IMG/VR virus record: IMGVR_UViG_3300037961_003947
Location: 1 to 44,081 of that record
From: a virus
Length of the DNA: 44,081 nt
Reading direction: 5' to 3' (one strand)
Shown: in pieces, positions 3,081 through 37,138 of the stretch
Layout: every line of letters begins with the position of its first letter
How positions within the stretch are numbered: the stretch's first letter is position 1
Translations under genes and position numbers: made by a program
Notes under the pieces: model-generated
The model's input: only the letters and a program-made list of their open reading frames with translations
Told to the model about the DNA's origin: nothing
Database searches by the model: none

Positions 3081-3320
3081 TTACTTTGCTTTTTGGACTA
3101 ACGTTAGTAAGAGTGACTTGATATCACTCATTTCAGATTTTAGATCAGAAACCTCTTTTTGTAAAGCTTTCTTTTCTGCATCTTCTTTTTGCCTCTTATT
3201 GTAAGATGCCATATATTTATCATATTCATCTTGGTTGCCCTTGATGATAGCATTAGAAGAAGGATCTCTATAGAGACCCTCCTTTCCTTCTACTGGAATT
3301 AAGTTATCAAAATCGTTCAT
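3081..3320 (-). CDS. Small coiled-coil protein (79 aa), probable virion-associated
   Basis: The N-terminal half (NDFDNLIPVEGKEGLYRDPS, then AIIKGNQDEYDKYMAS) resembles small proteins that I recall encoded after DUF4815 genes in cyanomyoviruses. The C-terminal half (about 40-79, KKALQKEVSDLKSEMSDIKS) is a strongly charged coiled coil ending in LLTLVQKAK. The start overlaps the DUF4815 stop as TAATG, so the two are coupled, and the product probably assembles with or assists that protein. Trimerisation or attachment of fibres through the coiled coil is inference. No catalytic motif is visible. Confidence 0.7.
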   Translation of the reverse strand: MNDFDNLIPVEGKEGLYRDPSSNAIIKGNQDEYDKYMASYNKRQKEDAEKKALQKEVSDLKSEMSDIKSLLLTLVQKAK

Positions 3321-18367: not shown

Positions 18368-18375
18368 TATTTATA
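18368..18375 (-). promoter_or_regulatory. T4-type late promoter upstream of the 406-aa gene
   Basis: The minus strand reads TATAAATA, an exact T4 late consensus, ending 20 bases before the ATG of the 406-aa gene. The stop codon (TAA) of the giant gene lies inside the motif. Confidence 0.75.
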
Positions 18376-21300
18376 GGATCTCTGGATCAATTACTTCTTC
18401 GCCATATTGACTGAGGTCTGGTGCAGTCCAATCATCAGGAACTGTAGTTGCAACACTTACTCCAGGATTCTCATATGAAGAACCTGCGTTTGTTACTGTT
18501 ACACCAGCAACGCCTACAAGTGCCTTAACTTGTCCATCAAATCCAGAGATAGAATCAAGTCTCACAGTGGGTCTAGAAGTATATCCAGATCCACCAGAAG
18601 TAACTTGAACCTTTTCAATTGAACCAGTGGTTAGATTGGCAGTCGCGTTTGCATTTTGTCCGAAGACAGATCCAAGATAATCAAATGTGATTAACGAATT
18701 TGAAGATTCAATAACCGCAACCTCACGATCACTAACTTCACCCTCAATATCAATGAAGTCGCCTGCTTCGATTGGAGGAACAACTTCATCAGAATCAACG
18801 TCTGCCTCAGAACCAACATAAGAGAATGCTACAAATGTAGATCCAAATCTAGGAACTTCCGAGAAGATAATTCTAGAACCAACAATTTCAAAACCAACTC
18901 CAGGTTCTTGAAGAACACCATTGATAGAAACAATAATGTTATTTTCTGGCAGAATTGTAGAAGACTGGATGCCATCTGTCAGAGTGAGTGAATAGAATAC
19001 ATCATTACGCTTGAGGTTAAATGACTGGCGTAAAGAATCGAACTCGAACGAAATATCATCGAGTTGTCTCAACTTACCAAGATAGAATCCTGTGAAAGAT
19101 GCTCCAAGTTCGGGTGCTTCTGTGAATTGAATATTATCCGAGAATGCTGTAAAAGCATTTGTACTACCAGGAGGTTGAAGAACACCGTTGATGAAGATCA
19201 GCATATGACCTGCAGGATCAGGAAGATACTGAGTTCCATTATCAGTAGTAAGTTTAAATGTGGTTTGTGTTCCATCAAACCCTTTAAAGAATCTCTTAAC
19301 TCTTGCTTTGAGTTCCTTTCTTTCAATAATTGCAGATCTATAATCATCAGGACCTCTGAGACCATCTCTGCCAGTAAATGCACCTTTAATATCAGTAAGA
19401 TATAATCTCCTATTTAAAGAAGTTGACTGAATGTCCTGAACGAGAGCAGATCCTGCACCAGCAATTGTTGTCTTAGAACTAGAAGTCGCTCTTCCAGCTA
19501 AAACCTCTCCACTAGCACCATAATCACCAACAACATCATTTGAGGCAATTGTACCTTCAACGGGTACATAGTAAATGTAATTATTATTGGAATCGTACTC
19601 ACTAATAATTCCGTATACATCAGTATCCTGACCACCATTAACAATACGATACAATCTATTACCAACAGTGAATTGATTAAGACTGGAGTCCACGGTGACA
19701 GTCAATCTTACATGACCAGTAGAAGCAATTCTGTCGCCTACGGAAATATCAAGTCCTGCATACTTAGTAACTTCTAGATATTCTCTGGAAGACTCAGGAT
19801 ATACGACACTAGTGCTTTCAAACGATCCAATCAGACTTGCGGTATCAACTGTAAGTCTACCGCCAGTGTTATCTGTTACGGATGCATTATTTTGCGTATA
19901 GGAAACTGGTTCAGCAGTCTCAGTGCTTGTATATCCAAGGAAAGGAATGTCTGCTGAGAAAGATCCCTTCACATCAATTACGTGTAATCTATTTTCAAGA
20001 GCACTAAGAGTAGCAGTTGTAGTATTAGCGCCGCCAACAATAACATCAGAAATCGCCCAAGTTCCACCAGTTACTTCAACATCAAGATACTTATAATTTG
20101 CATCTTCATAGAATCCATAAACAACACCCGTTACATTAGAATCACCTTGCTTAGAAACAGTTTCATTCATGGTATATGGTCCATCAGTGATGTCACCATC
20201 AATTCTAAATCTCTTATAAACCTTAACGACTTTCGCCTCGTTTAATGTGAGTCTTTGAACTTCTGCAGATGCGTCAGATGTAGCAGAATAAATGTAGTCT
20301 GATTGAACCAGTTCTCCAGAAATACCAACGGGGATATCACGATCGCCATAAACTTTAGTTGGAACAGAAATAGCATTATTTTCAGTGATAGTTGTGTAAT
20401 GCTCACTATCGCTCAATTGATTATCAATGATATTCAAACTAGATCTAATTACAGTCATAGCTGTATCAGAATTATAATTTGATGCTACTGCAGAATCATA
20501 GAACTTACTAAATGTAGCGGATGTAGAAGGACTTACTAAAGTATCTGAGAGTGCTCTCTTAGAGAAATCTCTAAGACGCTCAATAGCAAAGGTTTTAATA
20601 TTATATTCACCATTAGTAAAGAATTGTGTGCCAAGAACAGATGTATAAGTTCCTAATGGTTGAGTGGTTAATTTAGCACCCCACACATAGAGACCGTTAT
20701 TTGCTATTCCAGTATGATCTAAAGCACCAACGCTATTGAGAATACTCAGTCTTGTATTAAGTGCTGTGAATCCAAATCCGAAGGTCACTGTCATATAGAT
20801 TCTAAACCATCCACTACCAATGGGAACCATTCCATGATCACTAACGTTAATACCATTAGTAGCAAATACATTGCCAGTCGTACCATCCGTCAAATTAGAA
20901 CTAAATTGAGCGTTTTCAGCACCACTACCTAAACTAACGGTGAATCTAACTCTATCATATTCACCTTTTTTGACAAACATAGAAGATGTAAATCTCTGTT
21001 CTGATTGAGTAGAACCAGTGTCAAATGTATCGTTTGTACTATCAAATTTAATGCTAGTAGAATCAAAGGTGTCAAAAGATGTTAATGTGTAAGCTCTCGT
21101 AATAAAGTGCTCTCCAGCAGATGCGGTAGTATCAACCTTTTCAGCAGTTTGTGTATTGTCAGGAGACAATGCATTATTAGCAGTAACACTACTTAAAGTT
21201 GCTGTCCAGTTTTGATCAAACTGCTCGGGTAAAGTCCAAAGATTAGTGTTATCTACAGATTGACCAATCAGAGAAGTTAGTCCTTGAGCATATTCAAGAG

Positions 21301-24300
21301 TTTTTACATTACTATAATTGTTATAGTATTCATGAGATCCACTAACGCCACCTGTTGCAACAGTTGCTGTTGCGCCAGAAGGTGCTGTTAAATTAGCACC
21401 TGCAGCAAATATAGTTCCAGAAAGACTTCCAATCACCATAACAGATTTGGAGGTGTATAGAACTTTCGCTGTAGTACCACCACTAGTTACAGTTTCACCA
21501 ACGACAAATGTTCCACTAAATGCACTGAATGTTAAAGTGTATGCTGTTTGTGTGTCAACTGTGTTAGATGTGAGATAGTCATATTCAATATTACCGATAA
21601 TGTCATCAATAAATCCATCATAAACCCATGCTCCAGAACCAAATTGTTCGTTAACAAGAGATGCAATTTCTTGCTTGTAGTAATTTTTGTTGTAAACAAG
21701 ATTTTTAACTACACTCTTTGCCTCAGTATCACCTGGGAATAAAGTTGCCAATCCAAAATCAACCAAATCTCTAAATCTGTACCAAACTTCATCAATGTCC
21801 GAAGGGGACTCTGAATCTTGATATGCTGCTATGTTTGTATGTGCTGCTGCATATTGATTTCCAGTAACACTGGAACCATTGTCTCTCAGCAGATTCTTAA
21901 TTGCCTTTTCACCGAGAACTTTAATTTCCTCATGTGCGTGGAAGAATGCATACAATTCATTATTAATTGAAGTAATTTCTTTATTGAAATCTAAGAATTT
22001 CTCCATTTGTGCAATAGAACTGTTATTTCCGCCTGTTTGAAGATCGGAAATTGCAGCAATAATGAAGTCTTCAATATATGTTCTATAAGTTGCCTTTGTA
22101 TAAGTGTGTGAGGAGAATGTGCCGTTAGCAATGGTGTATTGAAGTTCCGTTCCAAGTAATCCAAGACTATTTGCAGAAGAGCGACCTGTGATCTCTTCAG
22201 AAATATACTCTCTATTAAAGTAGAGACGATCTCCTCCAATATTAAAATCATTATTAGTAGGAGCAATAATATCATTAATAGTTGTAATCAGATTGTCAAT
22301 TGCGGTTTTGACATTAGCACAACCACCAGCATCGTTAGTAATACCCCAATCACCAGTAATAATATTATCGGTATTATCATACGTCAAATCGCCAGTGATT
22401 GCTTCTTTTAAATAAACACCAAGTCTGTCGTGAGCGAAAACAGATTGCCAGACTTGAAGTCTGATATGCTGAAGTTCATTTTTGTTATCAACATAGAACT
22501 TAGCAGCTCTAACTGTATTCTTATTGCCACCAAATTCAATATCTTTAGCAATAGCATCAACAATCAATGCCATATCCGTTTTACATCTGAGCGTGCCAGC
22601 TCCAGTGCCATCACCATTTCTGGGCATGTCGTTAGACAAATCAGGATAGCGTTGAATCATATCAAACGCTGCTTTATCAACAATTACTGAATTATTTGAA
22701 CGGATTAAGTTTGCTGCATCACGGAATCTATATTGAGAATCTGCATCAATTTTATTAGAATACAGAGTATCAGTTGCAGCATTATGATATGAAGAAGTAA
22801 ATCCAACTTCATTAAATGCATCAACCGTTCCACCCTGATATTCTCTTGCAGGTTCAACCTTAGTGATGGTTGCAAGGTGATCTACAGGAGTGCCAAGGTT
22901 TGCTTGCTCTAAAGTATCTGTAAGGATATCCAACAGGTTGCTGATGGTGGAATAAACATCAGCACAATCACCCGTGGTATAATTCAGAACCTTAACAGCA
23001 TTTGCAGTAGCACTGACAAATGTATGAGCATAACGCTGACCAACAGGAGAAGCACCGACATTTACAGTAATAGTAGTGCTGGTTCTTGCCTTAACTGCAA
23101 GAACTTTATCATATGCAGTTGTATTACCCTTATCTGGATAAGCAATTTCTCGATCATTGTTATCATCTGCACAAGTAAATGTGATGGAATCACGCTCTAA
23201 TGCAACCAAAGAAGATGTTGTAAGAGAATTTGTTCCAATAGTCAGAACAAGATCACCTGTTGCCGCATCATATGTTGCTCCAGTTGGAGTAAATGTGGTG
23301 TATGTATTATTATTAGAGTCAGTTAAGGTCGAATCAGTGAACTGAGTCAAACCATGATTACCCTGAACAGTCCAGAGAACATTGTTGATGATATATTGAA
23401 GAATCTCTTTGACCTTATCATATGCCCAAACAGTTTCTGTAACTTCAGTGTCAACATGACTGATAGTGATAGGATTCGCAGTTCTATCGACATAGAGAGC
23501 AGAAGCATCCCAAATATGACTATTAGAACCATTACGCATATCTTCAGCAATAGCATCTAAGATATCACGAACATCATCCTCACAATTTACGTTACCGCCA
23601 GGAATAACCAAAGATGAATATTGCTGGGTTAACAGATATACTGCTTCTTTAGCAATAAAGTCTTTGTTAGCAACAATCAGATTCGCAGCATCATAATATC
23701 TGTGTGTCTTACCAGCAAATCCAGTGACAGGGGCAGTTTGATTGTTTGTATTATAAGTTGCAAGAATTGCATCATTGTTAAATTCTTCACCATCGGTCAG
23801 TGACTCACCACCAGACCAATCTTCGGTATAAGTTTGACCATAAGCACCATCAAAGTGCAGAAGCAGTTTGGTATTTGCATCACCTTGGAACATACCCGTG
23901 GGAGCGGTGAAGTTCGCTGTATAACGACCGCTATTGGAAATTCTAAATTCATCAATGTAACCAGGGAAATCAGCAGAAGCATCAAATGCAGCACCGATTC
24001 TGACTGGTTTAGTAGAACCATAGTTACCACTATCAGAGAAATCACTACCTTCTTGAGTCCCGTTAAGGAACATTTTAGTAGTTGTAGAAGTTCTAGAGAC
24101 TGCTACATGATACCAAGTATCAGCGACTAAGTTAGTAGCACCAGTAATAACAACACTACCATTTACATAATACTTGAGGTTTGCACCGTCAAGATACAGA
24201 TATGCAGAAACTTCTGTACCAGTAGTTCTCATATCAAAGATTGCTTTACTTCCAGAAGCAATTGAATTGGGTTTAATCCAACATTCAATAGTATATGCAT

Positions 24301-27300
24301 TAGTTCCAAATCCAAACTCAGTGGAAGTAGCAATGCTCGCATATTCATCAACAGGAACTGCACCAACATTTACAGTAATTGTTGTAGAAGTTGTAGCAGT
24401 AATAGCAAGTGCCGAACTAGATGCTGGGTCAGTAGAACGAGGATATGCTTTATTGGATGTATTATTATCTTGAGCACAAGTAAATACAACACCATTATCG
24501 GCAATTGTTACTGTGTTGCTAGTAGTAAGAGAATGTGTTCCAATATTAAGAACCATGAGACCCGAGAATGGGTCATATGTGGTTCCAGCAGCAGCGGTAA
24601 ACGATCCTGTAGCGCCACCGCCAGCAGTAATTGCATTAGTAACACCACTTACAAACGTATGTGCTGAAGTTCCAGGTGAAAGTGCCAGACAACCAGAACC
24701 ATACCTTTCATTGTAAGTATTAATTGTAGCATTGGTAAATGTTACAGAATGATAGTCCTCACCAGTAGACTTACATCTACCAATCTTACCAAGATAGATG
24801 GTCTGAGTTGCCTGACTATATCCAACAACTTCTGCCTTTGTGTCCAAAGTCCTAATTACATGACCATCGTTTAAGAAACCAGATCCCTGTCTATCAGTAA
24901 AGGTTAGTTTTCTAACCTTGATATCTTCATTTGCTGCAAATTCTGATGTATTAGTTCCATAAGAAATTGTATAATTTCTAATAAATTCATTATTATCAAA
25001 GTCGCCAGTTTGCTGATCGTAAACGATAATATTGTTACTGATAGATTCGCTCGAAGGGAATTGTGCATCAAAAGCAGTAGCATTATCAGTAAAGTCAACA
25101 ATACTTACTTGAGACTTAGAAATATCGTCAATAACTTTATTTGGATAAGTGACAGAAGTCAATCTGTTGAATAATAATCCAAAGAAAGAAGAACCAGAAG
25201 AAATATTAACTTGAGGAATAAACTCTTGAGTTACAGGATCTTGATATGCACTCGTGGAAGTTATACGAGCAACAACACCAGAAGAAGCACCAATAATAAC
25301 ATCATCAAGTTGAATATCGAATAATCCTGGTGTGGACTGATATGTACCTGTGGTTTTACTAAGAGTCAAACTGTTAGTAATCTCAATTGCAGTAGAATAT
25401 ACAGGAGAATTTTCTTGGTGGGAAATTGCTGCTGTTCCAGACTGAGCTCGAGATACTGTTAATGTTGTAGATTGTGATCCATTAGTAACTCCTGTAACAG
25501 TTATAATTTCGGATCTAATTTGATAATTCTCACCTACTTCAAAAGTATTCGCAGGAACGGGAGTTGGAGTTTCGGATGTAGTAGCAATTACCTCTATAGA
25601 AGTAGTTGCAGAACCAATACCATAACGGAGTTCCGCAATAGGTGTTTCTTGACCAGTTTCTAAGTTAATGGTTTCAATTCTTGCAGTATTACCCTCCAAG
25701 TTTGTAACTTGTTCGTTAAAGATAAACAATCCATTATTAACAACATCAGTGATAGTCTGTAAGGTTCCAGAAAATCCTGTGGCACTAACTTGACATTGCT
25801 CACCTGCAATGAAATTACCTTCAGTAACAAATCCACTAATATCGTCACCAGCAACAGTGGTTACAGTGAAACGCGCACTAGATGTAATACCAACGAGAGT
25901 ATTTCCTGCTGTTGGGAAAATACCACTAGTAAATGTGAATCCTAACGTCTTTGTACTAATTTGAGAAATTTGTGCATTGACATATTTGACACTAGCAGGA
26001 GGTTGTGGTGGTTCTGCAAATACAATAGAATCACCTTGAACTTCAAAGGAGGTGTTTGGAGTTTGAGCAACACCATTAAGAACAATCATCAATTGATTAG
26101 CATTAGCGATTACATTTTCGCTGTTAACTGTAAGAGGGAATTGAGTCTTAACACCATCAAACTGATTTGAAATGTCATCCAATCTTTGAACAACTGAAGT
26201 CAAAATATTCTCAGAAGAGGTAAGTCTCTTTTGACGGAATAAAACTTCAGTATTATTAAATTCGGAATAAATCGGTTCTGCTAAAGCAAAACTCTGAATA
26301 TTTGGAACTGTTGCTTCTCTAGCAAGTTCTACAGATTTTGTAAGTTGGAAATCAATCTCTTTATTTGCAGTATATCCATATTCTTCTAAATTGAGTTCAC
26401 CAAATACTTTGAAGGATGCTGGGTGTACATTCTTGATAAGAATATCTTTCCAATCATCAATGGAAACGGAAGATTTAACTGCGTATGAGAAATCTTGATA
26501 GTAATAAGAGTCTTGAATTTTCTGAACAATTTCAGAAGGTTTACCAATGTCATCAATAAATTGACCTGTAGTTTTTGTAATAGAACCAATTTCTAAGACA
26601 CCTTTAGCGATATTTAAATCACTAATTACACCAGAAGATTTAGAGATAGCACCCGAAACACTTTGCCCTTCAGCAAAATCTCCAGTGTAGTCAACAATCT
26701 TAAGAATTCTAGGACCAACTTGCCAACCTTCATTGGTAGAAACAAATCCAGTAGCAGTTGCATTTTCTAAAGAGTCACCTTGATATACAAGTTCACCCTC
26801 TAAGAATGTAGATGTAATTACATTCGCTTCTGCAGTAGCACCAAAAGATTCGGTCAATACTTGTTGTCTACCTGTACCAGCATTGACAAACGAAAGACCA
26901 TCACCAAGTTCAGCATTTGCTGCGGTGATTGCAAGTTTCATTTGGTCATTTTCCAAAGAATTTGCAGATCCAGTAATAGCATAATAAGTTGTGGATCCAT
27001 TTAATCTACCAGTTGCACCAGCAGCAAGGGGGTACTCAATTCCTTGACCAGTATCAACAACATTTAATGTAATCTCAGATCCATTTGCAATTCCATGAGG
27101 GAAGGCAAACTGAAGAAGACCTAAATCAAGGTTAACAACATAGTTGAAAGAAGATCTCAGAGATACCGTAGGTTCGGAAGAATATCCAGCACCAGGATCT
27201 TTAATTACAATCTGATCAATTCTACCGTTTCTAATTGACGCTTCTGCAGTAGCACCACTTCCACCACCACCTGTGATAATAACAGCTGGTGCCTGAGAAT

Positions 27301-30300
27301 AACCAGAACCAGGATCTGTGACAGTAATACTATCAAGAATACTAGTAGAAGTTAATTGAGCATTGATTGGGAATGTAATTTCAGGACGAAGTGTGTAATC
27401 ATGAGTATAATCATAACCAAAATTGTTATTCTTAAGTTTCTTGATTTTACCAACATTGGTTCCTTGAGCAAAAACAGATGCTCCAGTGCCAAATGCAGGG
27501 ATAATAACGTCAACATCAGCACCAGAACCAGTAAGACCAGATCCGAGAATACCTGGAACTGCATCAATATCAATAGATGCAGTTGTATATCCTTTACCAG
27601 GAGAAGTAATAGTTACAGATTGAATTTGACCAGGAATAGTAGTACCTTCATCATCCGTACCATCTGCAACTAGAATCGTAACAAAACCACCTTCACCATC
27701 GCCAGCAATCGGTACAGAATTATACACACCTACCGCATATTCTGTACCAGGATCATTGATTTCAACTCTTTCAATTTTTCTGGATGATTGAATACCAGTA
27801 ACAACAGGTAATTTAGAATAGAATCCACCAGAGTTGATCAATCTGATATCACCAATTGCACCAACTGCTTTTTCAGAACTCGTAGTATAAGAAGTTCTAG
27901 TAATATTGGCATTTCCTTCAGGTTCATTAGCCAATTCAAATTTAAATACAGTTGCACCTTGAGTAATAGTAGCACCAGCAACTGATGTAATACTGAAGGT
28001 TCCCATATAGGGAGAATCTACGATATCAAGATAACTATTTGAATCAATTGGAGAATCATCTCCAGTTCTAGATGGATCGAAGTAATAAGAGATATTAGTT
28101 ACAATATCTCTATCAACTTTTAGTTTTACCGTTGGGTTTGGTTGACCAGCACCAGTAACACCAGGAGTTCCAACTCTTTCAATAGAGTTGAATGAATATT
28201 CAAGTTTAAAGAGATTATCCTTCGAGAATGATAGGTTTGAACCAACCATTGAGGAGTGAGAAACATCAAATAAGTACTGGTGTCCATAGTACATTTTAAG
28301 TACAGGAGATTTAGCAAAGATACTTACATTTGCTGCTGTGGTTGCTGGATCTGTCTGAGCAACGGCATTTAACTTATAAGTAAATTCTCTATTACTTACA
28401 ACCCGATCAACAACAAAAGAACCGTCATATTCATCATATGCAACCGAATTGAGTTGTTGAGTTGGATTACCATCAACCAAAATATTATCACCAACAGAGA
28501 GATAATGTCTATCTCCAGTAATAATGTATACTTCATCTGTATTAGCAACTGCTGTTACCTGAAGAACTTTATCAAGTGTTGCGATGAGAGTAATCTTAGT
28601 TACACCAGTTAAATTAGTAATTTGTGCAGTAGTTTTTGCACTATTAAAACTAATATCACTAGATGTAATATCAACAACAGAACCAGGAATAAAGGAAGAA
28701 GAACCAGAAATCTCTACAATTTTAACACTATAGTGATCTGTATCAAATGGTTTGAATGTTGCAAAACTATCTAAATTTCCGCCACCACCAGTGGCATCAG
28801 TTCTATTCAAATTATAGTCGTCTAAATCAAAGTTAAATGTTCCAGGAGTAGTATTGACAACATCCTTAAATTCATAATCAGAAATCACATTAATATCATT
28901 AGGAACTGGACCTTCAATACCATAGGTGCTCTGTTCACTAAATTGAGATGTAGAAAGTACACCTGTGTTTAAATCATTTGACCACAGATTGTTGTTGACC
29001 GCAAGATATACTTTTTTGTTTGTTCTATCAACTCTTAATACATATCCACTATTTACAAATTGACCAGACGTGTTGTTCAATGTAAGTTTTGAACCAACAG
29101 TAATATTAAAGTCTTGATTAATTGTCAGTTCTTGCACATTGTCAATTTTTGTTGTAGAAGTCGTCTTCATGTAATAACGATTCTTGACAACTGCAGTCAG
29201 TTTAAGTTTTTGAGATCCAGGAGAAGGAACAGTTGCAGTTCTAGAACTCCATTCATCTACACTATATGCTAAAGTTTCTGTACCTTGAGTCAGTGAAGAT
29301 GTGGCATCTTCAAAATCAAGACCTTGAAGACCTACACCACCGAGAGTAAATCCAACATTGCTTACAGTTAATGTTGATCCTGTAACAGGAGTAACTGCGG
29401 TTCTTACAAATCCAATTTGAGTATTGGTTTGCAATCCTTTATCACCAAGTCGTTCAGAATCAGAATCTTTATCAGACTTCAATCCCCAACCAACATAATC
29501 AATATAATCATATCTCTTCAGATTGGTAGTGAACCAAGCATCATCAGTCCAATCATATGCGAGAGCAAAAGTATCTGTAGGAGGCAATGCATCAGCATCA
29601 GAAGGAACTGTTGGAGTTACTGCACGATTTCTCAGACGCAGATTATCAATATATCCTTCTAATTGTTCATTGGAACGGAATTGACCTGTAGTAGCAGATT
29701 TACCAGGAATGTTACCAATATAAAGATCTTTATTACTCAGTGACGTATTAGCAATAGTACCAGTAATAACTGAAATACCATTCACATATACAGTGAATAC
29801 ATTACCATCTTTTTTAACACCAATAAATTGCCAAGAATTATTAGCAAACATTGTGGTGGATACAGACTGGAAAGGACTGCTAGCAGAATTAATTGTTGTT
29901 GAATTATTTGTAACTACTAACTCCAATTTGCCATTTGCATGGTCATAGTATAACCAAAGTCCACCAGTAGCGTCTGTCGCATCACCAATGTTTAATAATG
30001 TATACTCAGTTTGACTATTAGATCTAAAATTAGATCCATCTTTGTACAGCATATACTCAATGGTCCAATTATCATTGAGTTTTGTTCCTAAGGACGCTGC
30101 TGGAACCTTGATAGCGCCATTTACCCAATCTCCGACAGAAGATACTGTAGCGGCATCAAATGTCAGAGAAGCGCCGCCACCGCCGCCTAGGCGTGCATCA
30201 GTAATAGTAAATGTTTCGTCTACAGCATAACCAGAACCAGGATTAACAATAGTAACTGTTGCTGCACCATTAGCAGCAACTACGACGCTAAAGGTAGCAC

Positions 30301-33300
30301 CTGTACCAGAAGCATCTGTACTAAAGTCACCAGTACCAATAGTATATGTTCCTGCAGTTCTAGAAGAATCAGCAGCACTGACTGTATCAATTGTTAAGAG
30401 GCGACCTGCCGTGGCATCCTTACCAAGAATTTTTGCATAACCACCCTCATACTTGACAGAATCACTACCTGTTGCACTAAGAGTGGATAGAGTATAATGA
30501 CCAGTTTTATCAGTAGCATCAGAAGCAAACTCACAAAGCAATTCATTTCTATTCCACTGAGTTTGACCAAATACGTATGGATCTCCAGAGTTATCTACCG
30601 TAATTGCGTGAACAGTAATACCTTCGATGCGATTCTTATCAAAATTATTATTAGTATGTTTTTTCAGTTTACCATCATATCCAATTTTTACACTATCAAC
30701 AAGTTTTTGATTAGTGGTACTATCAGTTCTAGTAAATGCAATATTTAAATCTCCGAAAATATCAATTGTACTTCTAGTGGCAAGTTCAATATTGCTACCA
30801 GATGGAGTGAGATATCTATAATTCCAGAGTAAATCACCACTTGCATCTAATTTACCAACCCAGAAACTATCTTTAGTTGCATTATTGGTCTTAAGAGCCA
30901 AAGTAGCAGTGATATAAAATTCATCGAATTCATCAACTGCTAAACTGGTATTTCTAAAGGAATAAACAGTATTATTAATCTCCTTAATCCATTCAATAGA
31001 GATTGCAGATGTTCCTACGATTGCTTTACCAAAGGCAACTTTAGAATCCGCTGCACCATCAGTAGCAGCAGTTTCCATAATAAAATAAACTGCATCATTA
31101 AGTACAATCAAATCTGTAACTTTCTCAGACCCTGAAGCAGATGCAATCTTTCTCTTAGCAGCAAAATCACCAGTGGAATCAATAGATGCAATAAATGCGT
31201 CTTGGGGATTTGCAGAGTTTGTATTTGTGTAACCACCAATAATATAACGAGTATCGGAATATTTTTTGAGTGTGGTGACATAATCAGCTCTGGTAGAACC
31301 AGAGATACCAGAGTATTCTTTCTGGAAACTAAGTGTTGCACTAAGACCATCGGTGCTTTGTACATACTTTGCAAGAATAATATCAGGATTGTATGCAGCA
31401 TTAACTTGAATATTTGGTCTGGTTTGTCCAACCAACCAAATATTGTCTCCACTAACATCTAATTTTGTAAATTCTGTATAGGTTTGTCCTACGGTGCTTT
31501 CAAGAGTTTTCTCCCACTCCTTAACACCAAGTTCAGAGAATTTTGAAACAAATGCAACTTCATTGTTAGTAGCATCTACAGTTTTTCCACAGAAGAAAAC
31601 TTCTTTGTTATCATTAACAAAAACATCATTAATTTTTACATATTCCTCATGCTCAACTAAAGAAACATAGTAATTTGCTTTTTTGAAGATTTGTGGATGG
31701 GATAAAATAACACGAGGATTTTTAGTATATCCAGATCCAGCATTTACGATGTTAACAGTATCAATAGATCCAACTGTTGTTGTAACTGCCTGAAGTTCTG
31801 CAGATTCACCGTCACCATCAATAATAATTGTGGGAGGAATTTCAGAATCATATCCAGACCCAGTTTGAGTAATTATAATTTCTTCAACACCTTTAAGTTG
31901 TCTGACGACGAAACTCTTATTTGTTTCATCCATTACAGGTGTATAATCAACATATACAGAATCACTTACAATCAAATTGTGAGGAGTCGATGTTGTTAAT
32001 ACGCCATAGAATTTATCTTCAACTGATTCAAACGTATATGCACTAACGGTCTCACCTTTGATTCTAGAGACCCTTGCAGATACACCACTTCCATCAGTAT
32101 CGGAATTGTCGAAGGTAAGGATGTCATTAACCTGGTAACTCTTACCAGCATCTTCAATGATGAATCCTGTTACGGATGCATCTTCAAATTTAGTAGTTGT
32201 TTCAACTTCAATATCAACTTTAGAATCAAATCTAACTTTGGGGAAATAATCAAATAATTGTAATGGAGATTCCTCAAGAATTTGATCAGGATCATCAGTT
32301 TCATCCTGACTGATAACACCATCTCTATTTTCATCTTCTACATCAAATAATAAAATGTCTCCGCTTTCTGTAGTAAGAGAATTTGTTGATACATTTGGTG
32401 CTCTTTCAACATCAATATCAACATTTTCGTAGGGGTCACGATATCTAATAACACCTGTGGGAATATTTTGCTGAATTGCATCTTTATTCAAATTCCAAGA
32501 ATCTACAATGGAATTAAAACTAGGTCCAATTACATAAGGGAATACTGGATTACCATTTTCCGTTGTATCGATAGTAATAAAATAGCAATATCTTCCATCA
32601 GGAAAATCTGGTGTTTTACAGAAACGACCATTATATTGATCCAAATCGCCCAGACCAAAAGAATATTCATAATCTTCAACAAAATTACCAGCAGGTTCAT
32701 CACTCAACGATGGTCCAGCAGATCTAACTGGATTTGGATTGCTAACCGAATCTTCAACAAGATTAGTTTTTAATCTATAAGAAGTATTCAGTCTAACAAT
32801 ATTTGAAGACTGATTCGTTGGATCAACATATCCATAAGGACCATAAATTGGATTACCATCAAATGCCCATCCAATGATTGGAGAGTGTTCTAATTGAGTT
32901 TCTTGCTCTAAAATAGATCCAGTAAGACTTTCAAATAAATTATCACCAAGAATATATCTCAATCTCTGTGGATTGGACAAATGAGCGTATTCACCACCAT
33001 ATTGATTATTATATCCAGCAAACACTGCTCCTTTTGCAGAATCAAATGTTGTGGTTTCTTGAAGGTTATAAGTCCACTTAAAGATATTTGGAGTAAATGT
33101 AGCGCCAGAACCAACAGAAGTCAAATTAATAACTGTAGTTCCCTGAACGTAATTAATACCTCTATTGATAATTTCAATACCAGTTACTCTTCCAGCATTT
33201 TCACCATCAGTGTCAATAGTTGCACGAGCAACTGCACCAAAACCATCACCCTGAATAGTAACCTCAGGAGCAGTCGTATATCCACTACCTGCTGAGATGA

Positions 33301-36300
33301 TAGCAATAGAAATAATTCTACCATTACTTACAATCGCTTGAGCAACTGCTCCAGAACCAGAACTAAGAGTGACAGTTGGATTGGAAGTATAAGATTCACC
33401 ACCATTGGTGATAGCAATAGATTTAACAGGTCCTCTAACAGAAGCAGTTGCTGTAGCACCAGATCCACCACCACCGACAATAGTAATTGTTGGTTGAGAT
33501 GTATATCCTGTACCGTTTGTATTCATAAGAATACTAGATACAACCCCTCTAGTAACAACAGCAGTTGCAGCAGCACCAGATCCGCCACCGCCAACAATTG
33601 AAACAAGAGGAGAAGACGTATAACCACTACCACCATCATTAACAATGATTTCAGTAATAGAACCATTAACAGTTACTGTACCAGCAGCACCTGTACCACC
33701 CCCACCAGAAATAGTAATATTTGGAGGAGATGCTGAATCATATCCAGATCCTGCATTATCAATATTGATTGATGTTACTGGACCAAAAGTTTTTGTAATG
33801 CTGGACTTATAAGACCAAATAGATGTTCCATTAATCCAAGTTCCAATAGCACCAGGAGAAATATTGTTTTTAACCGAAATAGTTTGAGATGCTAATGGGA
33901 ATCTATTAAGTTTACGCTGGTTTCCAGGTAAAAGAGCAGATCCAGGGAAAGGACCAATATTATAGTTTGGAATACCAGTAGATGCCACATAGACATAATT
34001 ATCATTGAAAAAGGTATTCTGAATATTCGTGGTATATGGACCAATAGAATTTAAAACTGCAGTATTATCAGACTTACCTTTATTGAGGTCAACAGAGACA
34101 AGAATATTACCTTGAGGAACTACTTCTGCAGGTTGTGCAAGTTGATATTGGAAAACAGTATCACTATCTCTAGATGTTACCAAGAAGGTTCCATTGAAAA
34201 GAATTGGATTTGCACCGTAAACTGTTACCTGGTCTCCAACCAAAAGACCATGATTATTTTCACAAGTAACTGTAGCAAATCGATTATCAACACCACCAAA
34301 AGCGATATTATCAACTTCAATTAATTTTTTGACATTATACAACCAAGTTTTTAATTGAGGTTTGGTAGATGTACCGCCAAGTTTAGATACTGACAATTTA
34401 TCGCCAGAAAGATAATAAGATCCAGTATCAGTTAAGGTTGTCTGTTGTGCATCAACAATACCTACAATATTAAGAACAACTTCTTGAGCAGTGCCTTTAT
34501 TTACATAAACAACCAAATTAGAAGTTACTTCAGTAGCAGAATCCCAATCTTCAACAATATTATTGACAGAGCGTGTACATTCAATAAACTGGTTTAAAGA
34601 TTTCTCTTTATACTGAATTACTTCTGAGTTACCAATAACAAATTCACCGTTTCTCTCTGGCCAACCAATCGTAGAGTCTACAGTGATAATACTGTCAGTT
34701 GCATTCAAAGGTTCTGCAAGTTTTGTTTTATATGGAACTACAAAACTTCCTTGAATAGTTTCTTCGGAAAGAACTAATTCGTAAAGTTCAACGTTAGAAG
34801 TTTTAATAGAAATAAAGTTTTCAATTAAAGCACTTGCTGCCTGAATATTAGGATCTGCAATACTAGACTCTTGAGTAAGGAGACCATCTTTGATATTAGT
34901 TGGATCACCACTAACTAAGGTTGCACGAAGAATAGTATCAATAGACCAAGTTGCTGCAGATGGTTTTGTAATCTGATCTTTTGGATAAGAAACTGTTACT
35001 TGTTCACCATACAGAAGTTTAAACAAGTATGCAACACTAAAAGAAGTACCTTTAGTAGAATAAAAATCTTTTACCGATTTAATTGCATTTCGTACATCAA
35101 TTTTTTTATAATCAAGTTCAGGAACATCTGGTAAAAACTGTTCTGTGTATTTGTCGAGAAGTCTCTTAACAAATAAAGCATCTAAACATTTTACTTCTGC
35201 ATTCTCCATTGCTGCAGATGCAGTTGTATTATTAGAAAATACTGCGTTTCCACTTTCAGTATATCTTACAATACCACTAGACGCTCTAGCACACCCTTCA
35301 AATTTGGCCTTAGTAAATCCACTTCCTTTTTTAGAAACAGAAAATCCTGTAATTTCATTTAAACCAATTTCAACAGATGCTCTGGCTTCTGGAGGATTTT
35401 GAATAATGATTGATGGTGGATTAGCTGAAGAATATCCACTACCAAAATTAGTGATGTTAATATCAGTAATTCTTCCATTAAAGACTGAAGCAGTTGCTGT
35501 AGCTCCAGTGCCACCGTCTTCTCTATTATCAACAATATAGACAGATGGGACATCATCATATCCAGAACCACCATTAAGTAATTCAACAGATACAATTCTA
35601 CCATCACCATCTACAAGAGTTTCTAATACCTGAGCACCTACGGGATCAACAACAGCAATTCTAGGTACACTAGTATATCCCTGACCAGCATTAATAATAT
35701 TGATAGAAGTAACTTTACCATCAGTAAGAACTGCTTGCAAAACTGCTTTTACAGGATTATTTCCAGTTGGTTCGTCAATATAAATGCTTGGAACCGTTGT
35801 ATATCCAGATCCACCATCTGTTACAGGAATAGTTCCACTAACACTACCATTAGAAAGTGTCACACTTCCTAATTTTGCACCACCTGGTTGTTTAAACGAA
35901 ACCCTAGGAGTAAAAGTATATCCGCTGCCCGAATTTTCAATTTCAATACTAGAAACTGAACCATTTGTAACAATTGCCTTTAATTTGGCATTTTTAGAAT
36001 CAGACGTTGTAGAAGACTGAACAACTACCTCTGGGGGGTTGGTATCACTATACCCCCTTCCGCCGTCAAGTAAAACAGAATTTTTAACACCATTTACAAG
36101 TGCTGTGGCTGCTGCACCAGATCCTGTATCAACACCTGTAATAGTAACTTTAGGAGGATATTTGTACTCATACCCAGAACCTGTAGAATTGATACTAATA
36201 GAATCTAATTCACCAGAATTACTAATACGAGCATAACCAACAGCACCAGAACCAAAATCTGGAATGGGTGCTTCAATAGAATACAGAGATAAAATTCTAC

Positions 36301-37138
36301 CATTTAATGGTGCTTCATTAAAGATGAATAGATTTTTATCGATAAAATAATCTTGCTTAGGTACTAAAAGATTATTATCGTAAACTGCTAAAATATATTC
36401 ATCTGCAATTGGTTCATAATCTACACCATTTCTACGAATCTTAAAAATTGTTTCTCCATCGCCAAAATCTGCAGAAATGCTATCAATAGGAACAATTGTA
36501 TTTTCAATAAATCCACTAAGAAAATTGATATAAGTATCAACATTATCATCACCAGCAACTCTTGCTCTAGGTGCTGTGGTGAAAACAATATTGTCATCAT
36601 CAACAGTATAGTCTACACCAGGAATTAAGATTTCTCCATAGAGACTAACAATTAAATGTTGTGCTGTTGGAGGACTAACTGGCGACGATTGAGATGTAAG
36701 GGGGAATGATCTAGTTGTTCCGTTGTATGAATCGATTAATTGAGCTAGACCAGTCCACTTAAGTTTTACCTGATCGTAAGATATACCAGGACTTAATGCA
36801 ATGTTAGGAGCAGACGTAGTTTTCTCATAGTAAATTACTTCGTCACCAATTAAAATAGATCCATTAGTATCAAGAAAACTATCTACACTTTCAACAACAA
36901 TAGTATTACTTTCACTTGTGATTGGTTCTACAATCTTAGTTGCACCGTCTAAAATATCTACATCAAGTTTATCAATATCAAGATATTGTAGGAAATTATT
37001 AATAATGTTCTGACCAAGACCAGTTTTTTCTTGAGATCTATAGTAATACTCAAGAAACTTATTAAACAGTGGATATTCTGTCTTTAAAAACTCAGGAGAC
37101 TGAGAACTAATAGACTGGGAGACCTTATTAATATTCAT
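18371..37138 (-). CDS. gp7: Giant baseplate wedge protein, gp7-like core with massive insertions (6255 aa)
   Basis: This single frame occupies 43% of the window. Three stretches resemble the C-terminal half of T4 gp7 as I recall it: the helical N-terminus (about 12-60, EYPLFNKFLEYYYRSQ), DFYSTKG followed by YLFKLLYGEQVTV (about 691-720), and SYAVKSSVSIDDWKD with NVHPASFKVFGEL (VHP at 3571-3573). Between and after them lie GSGY repeats (about 297-600, 1119-1346, 3113-3327 and near the C-terminus), a YHYH-like domain (1415-1545), a propeller-like region (1820-2205), LamG-like domains (2337-2510 and about 4130-4413), helical repeats (4480-4597, 4807-4960) and a carbohydrate-binding-like region (5300-5490). 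Four NGV-type beta modules lie at about 140-197, 3660-3715, 5953-6017 and 6033-6103. It sits where T4 has gene 7. T4 gp7 is 1032 aa. The insertions probably project from the baseplate rim, perhaps for receptor contact. Confidence 0.8.
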   Translation of the reverse strand: MNINKVSQSISSQSPEFLKTEYPLFNKFLEYYYRSQEKTGLGQNIINNFLQYLDIDKLDVDILDGATKIVEPITSESNTIVVESVDSFLDTNGSILIGDEVIYYEKTTSAPNIALSPGISYDQVKLKWTGLAQLIDSYNGTTRSFPLTSQSSPVSPPTAQHLIVSLYGEILIPGVDYTVDDDNIVFTTAPRARVAGDDNVDTYINFLSGFIENTIVPIDSISADFGDGETIFKIRRNGVDYEPIADEYILAVYDNNLLVPKQDYFIDKNLFIFNEAPLNGRILSLYSIEAPIPDFGSGAVGYARISNSGELDSISINSTGSGYEYKYPPKVTITGVDTGSGAAATALVNGVKNSVLLDGGRGYSDTNPPEVVVQSSTTSDSKNAKLKAIVTNGSVSSIEIENSGSGYTFTPRVSFKQPGGAKLGSVTLSNGSVSGTIPVTDGGSGYTTVPSIYIDEPTGNNPVKAVLQAVLTDGKVTSINIINAGQGYTSVPRIAVVDPVGAQVLETLVDGDGRIVSVELLNGGSGYDDVPSVYIVDNREDGGTGATATASVFNGRITDINITNFGSGYSSANPPSIIIQNPPEARASVEIGLNEITGFSVSKKGSGFTKAKFEGCARASSGIVRYTESGNAVFSNNTTASAAMENAEVKCLDALFVKRLLDKYTEQFLPDVPELDYKKIDVRNAIKSVKDFYSTKGTSFSVAYLFKLLYGEQVTVSYPKDQITKPSAATWSIDTILRATLVSGDPTNIKDGLLTQESSIADPNIQAASALIENFISIKTSNVELYELVLSEETIQGSFVVPYKTKLAEPLNATDSIITVDSTIGWPERNGEFVIGNSEVIQYKEKSLNQFIECTRSVNNIVEDWDSATEVTSNLVVYVNKGTAQEVVLNIVGIVDAQQTTLTDTGSYYLSGDKLSVSKLGGTSTKPQLKTWLYNVKKLIEVDNIAFGGVDNRFATVTCENNHGLLVGDQVTVYGANPILFNGTFLVTSRDSDTVFQYQLAQPAEVVPQGNILVSVDLNKGKSDNTAVLNSIGPYTTNIQNTFFNDNYVYVASTGIPNYNIGPFPGSALLPGNQRKLNRFPLASQTISVKNNISPGAIGTWINGTSIWSYKSSITKTFGPVTSINIDNAGSGYDSASPPNITISGGGGTGAAGTVTVNGSITEIIVNDGGSGYTSSPLVSIVGGGGSGAAATAVVTRGVVSSILMNTNGTGYTSQPTITIVGGGGSGATATASVRGPVKSIAITNGGESYTSNPTVTLSSGSGAVAQAIVSNGRIISIAIISAGSGYTTAPEVTIQGDGFGAVARATIDTDGENAGRVTGIEIINRGINYVQGTTVINLTSVGSGATFTPNIFKWTYNLQETTTFDSAKGAVFAGYNNQYGGEYAHLSNPQRLRYILGDNLFESLTGSILEQETQLEHSPIIGWAFDGNPIYGPYGYVDPTNQSSNIVRLNTSYRLKTNLVEDSVSNPNPVRSAGPSLSDEPAGNFVEDYEYSFGLGDLDQYNGRFCKTPDFPDGRYCYFITIDTTENGNPVFPYVIGPSFNSIVDSWNLNKDAIQQNIPTGVIRYRDPYENVDIDVERAPNVSTNSLTTESGDILLFDVEDENRDGVISQDETDDPDQILEESPLQLFDYFPKVRFDSKVDIEVETTTKFEDASVTGFIIEDAGKSYQVNDILTFDNSDTDGSGVSARVSRIKGETVSAYTFESVEDKFYGVLTTSTPHNLIVSDSVYVDYTPVMDETNKSFVVRQLKGVEEIIITQTGSGYDSEIPPTIIIDGDGESAELQAVTTTVGSIDTVNIVNAGSGYTKNPRVILSHPQIFKKANYYVSLVEHEEYVKINDVFVNDNKEVFFCGKTVDATNNEVAFVSKFSELGVKEWEKTLESTVGQTYTEFTKLDVSGDNIWLVGQTRPNIQVNAAYNPDIILAKYVQSTDGLSATLSFQKEYSGISGSTRADYVTTLKKYSDTRYIIGGYTNTNSANPQDAFIASIDSTGDFAAKRKIASASGSEKVTDLIVLNDAVYFIMETAATDGAADSKVAFGKAIVGTSAISIEWIKEINNTVYSFRNTSLAVDEFDEFYITATLALKTNNATKDSFWVGKLDASGDLLWNYRYLTPSGSNIELATRSTIDIFGDLNIAFTRTDSTTNQKLVDSVKIGYDGKLKKHTNNNFDKNRIEGITVHAITVDNSGDPYVFGQTQWNRNELLCEFASDATDKTGHYTLSTLSATGSDSVKYEGGYAKILGKDATAGRLLTIDTVSAADSSRTAGTYTIGTGDFSTDASGTGATFSVVVAANGAATVTIVNPGSGYAVDETFTITDARLGGGGGASLTFDAATVSSVGDWVNGAIKVPAASLGTKLNDNWTIEYMLYKDGSNFRSNSQTEYTLLNIGDATDATGGLWLYYDHANGKLELVVTNNSTTINSASSPFQSVSTTMFANNSWQFIGVKKDGNVFTVYVNGISVITGTIANTSLSNKDLYIGNIPGKSATTGQFRSNEQLEGYIDNLRLRNRAVTPTVPSDADALPPTDTFALAYDWTDDAWFTTNLKRYDYIDYVGWGLKSDKDSDSERLGDKGLQTNTQIGFVRTAVTPVTGSTLTVSNVGFTLGGVGLQGLDFEDATSSLTQGTETLAYSVDEWSSRTATVPSPGSQKLKLTAVVKNRYYMKTTSTTKIDNVQELTINQDFNITVGSKLTLNNTSGQFVNSGYVLRVDRTNKKVYLAVNNNLWSNDLNTGVLSTSQFSEQSTYGIEGPVPNDINVISDYEFKDVVNTTPGTFNFDLDDYNLNRTDATGGGGNLDSFATFKPFDTDHYSVKIVEISGSSSFIPGSVVDITSSDISFNSAKTTAQITNLTGVTKITLIATLDKVLQVTAVANTDEVYIITGDRHYLSVGDNILVDGNPTQQLNSVAYDEYDGSFVVDRVVSNREFTYKLNAVAQTDPATTAANVSIFAKSPVLKMYYGHQYLFDVSHSSMVGSNLSFSKDNLFKLEYSFNSIERVGTPGVTGAGQPNPTVKLKVDRDIVTNISYYFDPSRTGDDSPIDSNSYLDIVDSPYMGTFSITSVAGATITQGATVFKFELANEPEGNANITRTSYTTSSEKAVGAIGDIRLINSGGFYSKLPVVTGIQSSRKIERVEINDPGTEYAVGVYNSVPIAGDGEGGFVTILVADGTDDEGTTIPGQIQSVTITSPGKGYTTASIDIDAVPGILGSGLTGSGADVDVIIPAFGTGASVFAQGTNVGKIKKLKNNNFGYDYTHDYTLRPEITFPINAQLTSTSILDSITVTDPGSGYSQAPAVIITGGGGSGATAEASIRNGRIDQIVIKDPGAGYSSEPTVSLRSSFNYVVNLDLGLLQFAFPHGIANGSEITLNVVDTGQGIEYPLAAGATGRLNGSTTYYAITGSANSLENDQMKLAITAANAELGDGLSFVNAGTGRQQVLTESFGATAEANVITSTFLEGELVYQGDSLENATATGFVSTNEGWQVGPRILKIVDYTGDFAEGQSVSGAISKSSGVISDLNIAKGVLEIGSITKTTGQFIDDIGKPSEIVQKIQDSYYYQDFSYAVKSSVSIDDWKDILIKNVHPASFKVFGELNLEEYGYTANKEIDFQLTKSVELAREATVPNIQSFALAEPIYSEFNNTEVLFRQKRLTSSENILTSVVQRLDDISNQFDGVKTQFPLTVNSENVIANANQLMIVLNGVAQTPNTSFEVQGDSIVFAEPPQPPASVKYVNAQISQISTKTLGFTFTSGIFPTAGNTLVGITSSARFTVTTVAGDDISGFVTEGNFIAGEQCQVSATGFSGTLQTITDVVNNGLFIFNEQVTNLEGNTARIETINLETGQETPIAELRYGIGSATTSIEVIATTSETPTPVPANTFEVGENYQIRSEIITVTGVTNGSQSTTLTVSRAQSGTAAISHQENSPVYSTAIEITNSLTLSKTTGTYQSTPGLFDIQLDDVIIGASSGVVARITSTSAYQDPVTQEFIPQVNISSGSSFFGLLFNRLTSVTYPNKVIDDISKSQVSIVDFTDNATAFDAQFPSSESISNNIIVYDQQTGDFDNNEFIRNYTISYGTNTSEFAANEDIKVRKLTFTDRQGSGFLNDGHVIRTLDTKAEVVGYSQATQTIYLGKIGRCKSTGEDYHSVTFTNATINTYNERYGSGCLALSPGTSAHTFVSGVTNAITAGGGATGSFTAAAGTTYDPFSGLMVLNIGTHSLTTSNTVTIADNGVVFTCAQDNNTSNKAYPRSTDPASSSALAITATTSTTITVNVGAVPVDEYASIATSTEFGFGTNAYTIECWIKPNSIASGSKAIFDMRTTGTEVSAYLYLDGANLKYYVNGSVVITGATNLVADTWYHVAVSRTSTTTKMFLNGTQEGSDFSDSGNYGSTKPVRIGAAFDASADFPGYIDEFRISNSGRYTANFTAPTGMFQGDANTKLLLHFDGAYGQTYTEDWSGGESLTDGEEFNNDAILATYNTNNQTAPVTGFAGKTHRYYDAANLIVANKDFIAKEAVYLLTQQYSSLVIPGGNVNCEDDVRDILDAIAEDMRNGSNSHIWDASALYVDRTANPITISHVDTEVTETVWAYDKVKEILQYIINNVLWTVQGNHGLTQFTDSTLTDSNNNTYTTFTPTGATYDAATGDLVLTIGTNSLTTSSLVALERDSITFTCADDNNDREIAYPDKGNTTAYDKVLAVKARTSTTITVNVGASPVGQRYAHTFVSATANAVKVLNYTTGDCADVYSTISNLLDILTDTLEQANLGTPVDHLATITKVEPAREYQGGTVDAFNEVGFTSSYHNAATDTLYSNKIDADSQYRFRDAANLIRSNNSVIVDKAAFDMIQRYPDLSNDMPRNGDGTGAGTLRCKTDMALIVDAIAKDIEFGGNKNTVRAAKFYVDNKNELQHIRLQVWQSVFAHDRLGVYLKEAITGDLTYDNTDNIITGDWGITNDAGGCANVKTAIDNLITTINDIIAPTNNDFNIGGDRLYFNREYISEEITGRSSANSLGLLGTELQYTIANGTFSSHTYTKATYRTYIEDFIIAAISDLQTGGNNSSIAQMEKFLDFNKEITSINNELYAFFHAHEEIKVLGEKAIKNLLRDNGSSVTGNQYAAAHTNIAAYQDSESPSDIDEVWYRFRDLVDFGLATLFPGDTEAKSVVKNLVYNKNYYKQEIASLVNEQFGSGAWVYDGFIDDIIGNIEYDYLTSNTVDTQTAYTLTFSAFSGTFVVGETVTSGGTTAKVLYTSKSVMVIGSLSGTIFAAGANLTAPSGATATVATGGVSGSHEYYNNYSNVKTLEYAQGLTSLIGQSVDNTNLWTLPEQFDQNWTATLSSVTANNALSPDNTQTAEKVDTTASAGEHFITRAYTLTSFDTFDSTSIKFDSTNDTFDTGSTQSEQRFTSSMFVKKGEYDRVRFTVSLGSGAENAQFSSNLTDGTTGNVFATNGINVSDHGMVPIGSGWFRIYMTVTFGFGFTALNTRLSILNSVGALDHTGIANNGLYVWGAKLTTQPLGTYTSVLGTQFFTNGEYNIKTFAIERLRDFSKRALSDTLVSPSTSATFSKFYDSAVASNYNSDTAMTVIRSSLNIIDNQLSDSEHYTTITENNAISVPTKVYGDRDIPVGISGELVQSDYIYSATSDASAEVQRLTLNEAKVVKVYKRFRIDGDITDGPYTMNETVSKQGDSNVTGVVYGFYEDANYKYLDVEVTGGTWAISDVIVGGANTTTATLSALENRLHVIDVKGSFSADIPFLGYTSTETAEPVSYTQNNASVTDNTGGRLTVDTASLIGSFESTSVVYPESSREYLEVTKYAGLDISVGDRIASTGHVRLTVTVDSSLNQFTVGNRLYRIVNGGQDTDVYGIISEYDSNNNYIYYVPVEGTIASNDVVGDYGASGEVLAGRATSSSKTTIAGAGSALVQDIQSTSLNRRLYLTDIKGAFTGRDGLRGPDDYRSAIIERKELKARVKRFFKGFDGTQTTFKLTTDNGTQYLPDPAGHMLIFINGVLQPPGSTNAFTAFSDNIQFTEAPELGASFTGFYLGKLRQLDDISFEFDSLRQSFNLKRNDVFYSLTLTDGIQSSTILPENNIIVSINGVLQEPGVGFEIVGSRIIFSEVPRFGSTFVAFSYVGSEADVDSDEVVPPIEAGDFIDIEGEVSDREVAVIESSNSLITFDYLGSVFGQNANATANLTTGSIEKVQVTSGGSGYTSRPTVRLDSISGFDGQVKALVGVAGVTVTNAGSSYENPGVSVATTVPDDWTAPDLSQYGEEVIDPEIL
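23890..24770 (-). other. LamG-like domain split by a fibre module, in the giant protein
   Basis: The concanavalin-like/LamG core runs from GSGCLALSPGTSA to AYTIECWIKPN and VADTWYHVAVSRT, then PGYIDEFRIS. Between GTSA and EYASI lies about 100 residues of an unrelated module (HTFVSG ... HSLTTSN ... TITVNVGAVP, about 24340-24670). A related module recurs at about 22990-23300. LamG domains commonly bind glycans. Confidence 0.65.
30248..30301. repeat. 54-nt near-identical repeat, copy in the giant gene
   Basis: This segment matches 9065-9118 in the DUF4815 gene at 53 of 54 positions and in the same reading frame. It encodes part of the shared module GATFSVVVAANGAATVTI. Confidence 0.9.
32510..32890 (-). 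other. YHYH-like domain in the giant protein
   Basis: Residues about 1415-1545 contain SPIIGWAFDGNPIYGPYGY, then EYSFGLGDLDQYNGRFCKTP and NPVFPYVIGPSF. This is the order and wording of the YHYH domain family as found in marine phage proteins. The YHYH tetrapeptide that names the family is not present. A second, interrupted copy lies in the 1375-aa protein. Confidence 0.7.
33100..33790 (-). repeat. GSGY repeat cluster 2 in the giant protein
   Basis: Five or six tandem copies lie at residues about 1119-1346, with the regular form GSGYTSSPLVSIVGGGGSGA. They are more similar to each other than those of cluster 1, suggesting more recent tandem duplication. They immediately precede the YHYH-like domain. 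Confidence 0.85.
35340..36260 (-). repeat. GSGY repeat cluster 1 in the giant protein
   Basis: About eight tandem copies of a 35-45 residue beta module lie between residues about 297 and 600. Each has a GSGY/GRGY/GQGY turn, a proline a few residues on, a short strand ending in a glycine, then a small-residue stretch (for example GSGYTTVPSIYIDE, GQGYTSVPRIAVVD, GSGYDDVPSVYIVD). They fall between the first and second gp7-like anchors and so account for most of the extra length there. Confidence 0.85.

Follow-up and report, generated by a model that had tools for sequence, protein, structure and literature searches.

The window is the virus record IMGVR_UViG_3300037961_003947 (44,081 bases), which derives from an uncultivated virus and contains the baseplate and tail gene cluster of a T4-like cyanophage (Kyanoviridae). 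Its closest isolates are Synechococcus phage S-CAM22 and Prochlorococcus phage P-SSM7. S-CAM22 has the same gene order as the window and is 83%–86% identical to it in DNA at both sites described here. Two large genes, both encoded on the minus strand, are concerned. The DUF4815/VrlC baseplate gene (positions 3320–11425; 2701 aa) belongs to phrog_358, and its match to PF16075 (E = 1.8e-64, 218 bits) passes the cut-off of 30. The giant baseplate/virion structural gene (18371–37138; 6255 aa) is placed between the gp6 and gp9 homologues, and its start region matches phrog_701/19630. Each gene carries one copy of a common module (module A), located at 8960–9211 in the DUF4815 gene (83–84 residues) and at 30143–30391 in the giant gene (83 residues), again on the minus strand. 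An earlier sequence-only reading had described a common module of ~75 residues. The sharing was confirmed, but the module is slightly longer than this estimate. In the DUF4815 gene, two GSGY-type modules (type B; 9221–9595, minus strand) immediately precede module A, so that the three form a B-B-A array; there are other phages in which this site is empty. A further repeat, at 15562–15622 in the gp7-like gene and at 32828–32888 in the giant gene, shows 79% identity over 61 nt (D17).

Within module A, a tract of 54 nt at 9065–9118 in the DUF4815 gene and at 30248–30301 in the giant gene (both minus strand) is identical at 53 of 54 positions, exactly at the coordinates and with the one-base difference noticed before. 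The tract is enclosed by a 155-nt ungapped repeat of 79% identity (D8), which lies inside the common module. The one unmatched base distinguishes GGT from GCT. The same residue is encoded by 17 of the 18 tract codons in both genes, and none of these 17 shows a synonymous difference. In contrast, 31 of the 46 same-residue codons in the module outside the tract differ in their DNA (Fisher P = 8e-7). The near-identity therefore extends to third codon positions, as had been claimed. The flanks were also correctly described as more diverged, with the module DNA on the two sides of the tract being 60%–68% identical (58/96 and 69/102). Given the 73% identity of the two modules overall, the length of the longest identical run was significant by permutation (P = 0.0014), as were a mismatch-tolerant fragment score (P = 1e-4) and codon shuffling (P = 0.0003) for the same module pair. 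The two related loci thus show the pattern by which ectopic gene conversion is recognized, with a common tract whose similarity, also at silent sites, greatly exceeds that of the adjoining DNA.

The direction of the transfer was read from relatives, for which orthologous loci were gathered for both the DUF4815 and the giant-gene site. The nearest relative of the DUF4815 gene (L008) is 91.4% identical to the window over 3,622 nt and differs from it at 12 sites of the tract. The window has the base of its own giant gene at all 12 of these sites, compared with only 7 of the 15 differing sites in the module outside the tract (P = 0.003). The most diverged stretch between the window and L008 over 3.6 kb holds the tract, with four other regions being nearly as diverged. 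On the giant-gene side, the relative L088 shares 98.67% identity with the window across 6,092 nt, and its tract matches that of the window giant gene at 53 of 54 positions, with a single codon changed (GTT for GTC). The window DUF4815 tract is matched at 52/54 positions by the giant gene of L088 and at 46/54 by that of S-CAM22, and the DUF4815 copy of S-CAM22 itself matches it at 39/54. The giant-gene version of the tract is thus the inherited one in that gene, where it is ancestral and kept in L088 and S-CAM22. The change was one-way, as the recipient was converted to the donor version and the donor remained unchanged. The DUF4815 gene as donor is ruled out by L088, L008, and S-CAM22.

The event is also recent. 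The GTC codon is common to the two copies of the window and absent from L088 and the other giant-gene relatives examined. Since only the window's two copies have this codon among those examined, the transfer must have happened recently and from a very close donor. Among 50,697 phage records searched, none but the giant gene of S-CAM22 (85%) matched the tract over its full length. The recipient sites that changed relative to L008 are confined to tract positions 12–46, and the copied piece therefore measured ~35 to 54 nt. This refines the sequence-only reading: the converted piece need be only 35 nt long, and the 54 nt represent the outer identical block.

These observations are most probably explained by a recent, one-way, short-tract gene conversion, in which 35–54 nt of the giant gene, either the phage's own or that of a near-identical sibling, were copied into the DUF4815/VrlC module. 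This supports the earlier proposal of a recent recombination or gene conversion between structural genes ~21 kb apart, to which the relatives add the polarity from the giant gene to the DUF4815 gene. A piece of the module in the giant gene would have overwritten its counterpart in the related module. A substrate for such conversion exists because both genes carry the same promiscuous, self-contained, 83-residue all-beta domain, which marine phages acquire, drop, and exchange between sites in numerous virion proteins. When L008 is taken as a stand-in for the ancestor, the blocks identical to the giant gene at the tract are just ~8–12 nt long. As only such short blocks were shared before the event, we infer that strand invasion or template switching is the likely route, with pairing at these blocks during phage replication. 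The GGT/GCT mismatch with the donor requires a retained recipient base, two separate patches, or a later mutation.

Judged by the tract sequence, the donor may equally well have been the phage's own giant gene or the one carried by a near-identical coinfecting sibling. The same exchange could also have taken place between genomes, with a coinfecting phage supplying the tract from its giant gene to the DUF4815 gene, but we consider this rather unlikely. Exchange between genomes does occur at some point, as seen from a cross-gene tract shared by different contigs (L020 and L254, described below). However, the window tract fits the window's own giant gene better than any other known giant gene, including the GTC codon that has no counterpart in L088 (98.7% identity), and a donor from another genome could only be a near-identical sibling. 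The main technical doubt concerns a local assembly artefact in a repeated domain, but it is improbable that the tract arose in this way, by joining reads of both module copies and placing a giant-gene patch in the DUF4815 gene. Such an error would be consistent with the window being the record of an uncultivated virus and with the recipient tract being found in no second record or assembly. Nevertheless, the two copies differ at about one quarter of their bases, and short-read assemblers separate copies of this kind; the tract also departs from the donor at an internal base, and a comparable tract is present in the isolate S-CAM22.

The presence of the module in both genes, and its lack in many relatives, would also agree with a recent duplication of the whole module between the genes, followed by divergence of the flanks. 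This is contradicted by the module tree, where the two modules of the window fall into different, well-supported groups. In addition, both sites are filled with long-diverged copies in S-CAM22, G002, and G003, and the low identity of the window modules outside the tract is at odds with a recent copy, which makes this explanation very improbable. Even less credible is a constraint at the nucleotide level (RNA structure, codon choice, or a binding site) that would keep the 54 nt the same in the two genes. The encoded residues are indeed conserved in all copies, but relatives at either site freely use different synonymous codons within the tract. The sequence-only reading had reasoned that the same sequence present at both places in many unrelated phages would indicate selection of this kind. 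When this was looked for, the exact 24-nt core of the tract had no match in 2.9 million viral contigs, and together with the free synonymous variation this led us to reject nucleotide-level conservation.

The module that underlies the conversion is a discrete insert with sharp ends. Of 67 distinct relatives, 58 lack it at the giant-gene site and have their flanks joined by a short linker alone, and the tree of the giant-gene flanks requires at least three changes in module presence. The DUF4815 site was compared in 65 relatives: 36 have no module there, 20 carry module A, and nine a module of another type. In L106, the flanks are 64%–68% identical to the window and the module 82%, with the same local junction as in L093. 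The same sharp ends, from [IV]DT[IV]..AD.SRTAGTYTI to GGGGAALTFDVAT[VI], were found in 83 distinct copies with unrelated flanks. At least 10 contexts were recognized. Besides the DUF4815 protein (phrog_358) and the giant protein of the baseplate, the carriers include a YadA-like protein (phrog_697), the tail sheath (phrog_23, Phage_sheath_1), a head protein (phrog_613), a nozzle protein (PF25675), a tail-fibre-like protein, and a major-tail-like protein. The nozzle protein (L023 and L032) shows that the module occurs in phages unlike T4 as well. Five copies in tandem, each of ~75–80 residues and well diverged from one another, occupy the giant-gene site of L059 (L273). Median dN/dS values of 0.04–0.31 indicate purifying selection, and thus the module is kept as a protein.

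Two module copies were also found on contig JFNU01000169.1 of the Prochlorococcus single cell scB245a_520K10 (L277; also L279, L281, and L282), within a surface-type repeat protein that is at least 2,499 aa long. This contig appears to be host DNA, because the neighbouring stretch has cellular polysaccharide-synthesis genes. Module matches were obtained in only two of the 151 Prochlorococcus genomes searched. Another copy is located on PAZU01000056.1 (L278), assigned to a Euryarchaeota MAG. Its carrier is a tail-fibre-like protein (phrog_693), so this contig is probably a virus that was binned in the MAG.

Tracts between module copies are not confined to the window. The two copies in the isolate S-CAM22 share a ~55-nt tract with few mismatches at another position of the module (P = 0.005 by codon permutation). 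A weaker tract, with a run of 22 sites, was seen in the G002 pair (P = 0.24), and codon permutation revealed no tract in the two-copy pairs of G003, G008, P-SSM7, S-TIM4, and G012. Clear tracts are therefore present in two of the eight two-copy genomes, namely the window and S-CAM22, with P values calculated per pair and uncorrected for how many pairs were compared. The tested pairs leave out L264, which is a DUF4815-type gene, and L036, L260, and L270, which are of this type by their flank. Between different contigs, 59 identical nt are shared by the module of a tail-sheath gene (L020, 3001–3234) and that of a DUF4815-like gene (L254); many of these 59 sites differ in L252, a sibling of L254. 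In the module tree, the copies mostly group by site, with eight changes compared with a mean of 49 after shuffling. Since the copies mostly cluster in this way, conversion is patchy and does not homogenize them. Concerted evolution of all copies was rejected on the basis of the same clustering and the few two-copy genomes with tracts.

AlphaFold2, run with 55 diverse copies, modelled the module with confidence as a small all-beta domain (pLDDT 90). Foldseek searches of the PDB with two models returned no match at E ≤ 0.001, and a sequence search of the PDB with the module gave nothing convincing. Structural re-alignment of the pLDDT-90 model reached a best Z of 2.7, and an earlier, weaker model reached Z 4.1 with a Bacillus S-layer domain; both values are too low to mean much. 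In BFVD, for which the first model alone served as query, most matches were to virion proteins of cyanophages or uncultured phages. In Pfam, no family, the Ig-like families included, scored above its own cut-off in any of 18 module members. The predicted fold is possibly unrecorded.

The module turns up sporadically in a range of unrelated virion proteins, as promiscuous phage Ig-like domains do. Promiscuous Ig-like domains of phage virion proteins were reportedly described by Fraser et al. in 2006. The likeness of the module to these domains lies in its distribution. According to PMC9230969 and PMC6949934, Ig-like domains are common additions to the sheath and further virion proteins of phages, where they are believed to make weak contact with host-surface sugars or to stabilize the particle. 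By analogy, the module probably provides accessory surface contact or particle stabilization. Like the Ig-like domains, it is small, beta, sporadic, and found in unrelated virion proteins (sheath, baseplate, and head). Unlike them, neither its sequence nor its model significantly matched an Ig family, its phage copies are only marine in the data examined, and it exchanges short tracts between genes. The BACON repeats of crAss-like phages, as described in PMC6949934, are likewise beta domains of the virion; they have spread through horizontal transfer and through tandem duplication, the latter comparable to the five copies in L059. They are, however, a different domain, and in comparison with that account, tract exchange between different genes is a feature of the module.

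Recently emerged and ongoing domain mosaicism has been reported in phage proteins, where functionally different virion proteins share domains (PMC10684548). The module is similarly common to functionally different virion proteins, but whereas that mosaicism concerns domains and takes place between phages, the unit here is a patch of 35–54 nt in two genes of one lineage. Intragenic mosaicism has also been described in the tail fibre genes of T4-related phages (PMC2993671). Both cases involve mosaic recombination inside virion genes of a T4-related phage; there, alleles of one gene are mosaic, whereas here different genes 21 kb apart exchange through a common module. In the open-licence literature, we found no description of the module or of short-tract conversion between its copies in different virion genes. 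We tentatively suggest, as a reading that falls somewhat short of probable, that the module represents a hitherto undescribed family of promiscuous virion domains, 83 residues long and possibly of unrecorded fold, which moves as a translated cassette among the structural genes of several types of marine tailed phages (contractile-tailed and nozzle-bearing), occasionally enters a host surface protein, and exchanges short DNA tracts between copies in non-homologous genes.

Mosaicism of phage virions is usually described in terms of genes or domains that phages exchange. Here, a patch of a few dozen nucleotides passed between two virion genes of one lineage, and this exchange is polarized by close relatives and accompanied by a comparable tract in an isolate. 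The analysis also brings out an unannotated domain that is common to baseplate, sheath, head, and nozzle proteins and was found once in a Prochlorococcus surface-type protein. Short-homology ectopic recombination in T4-like cyanophages becomes directly testable. If copies of the suggested module family do exchange short tracts across non-homologous genes, sequence variants of the module patch would spread between different parts of one particle.
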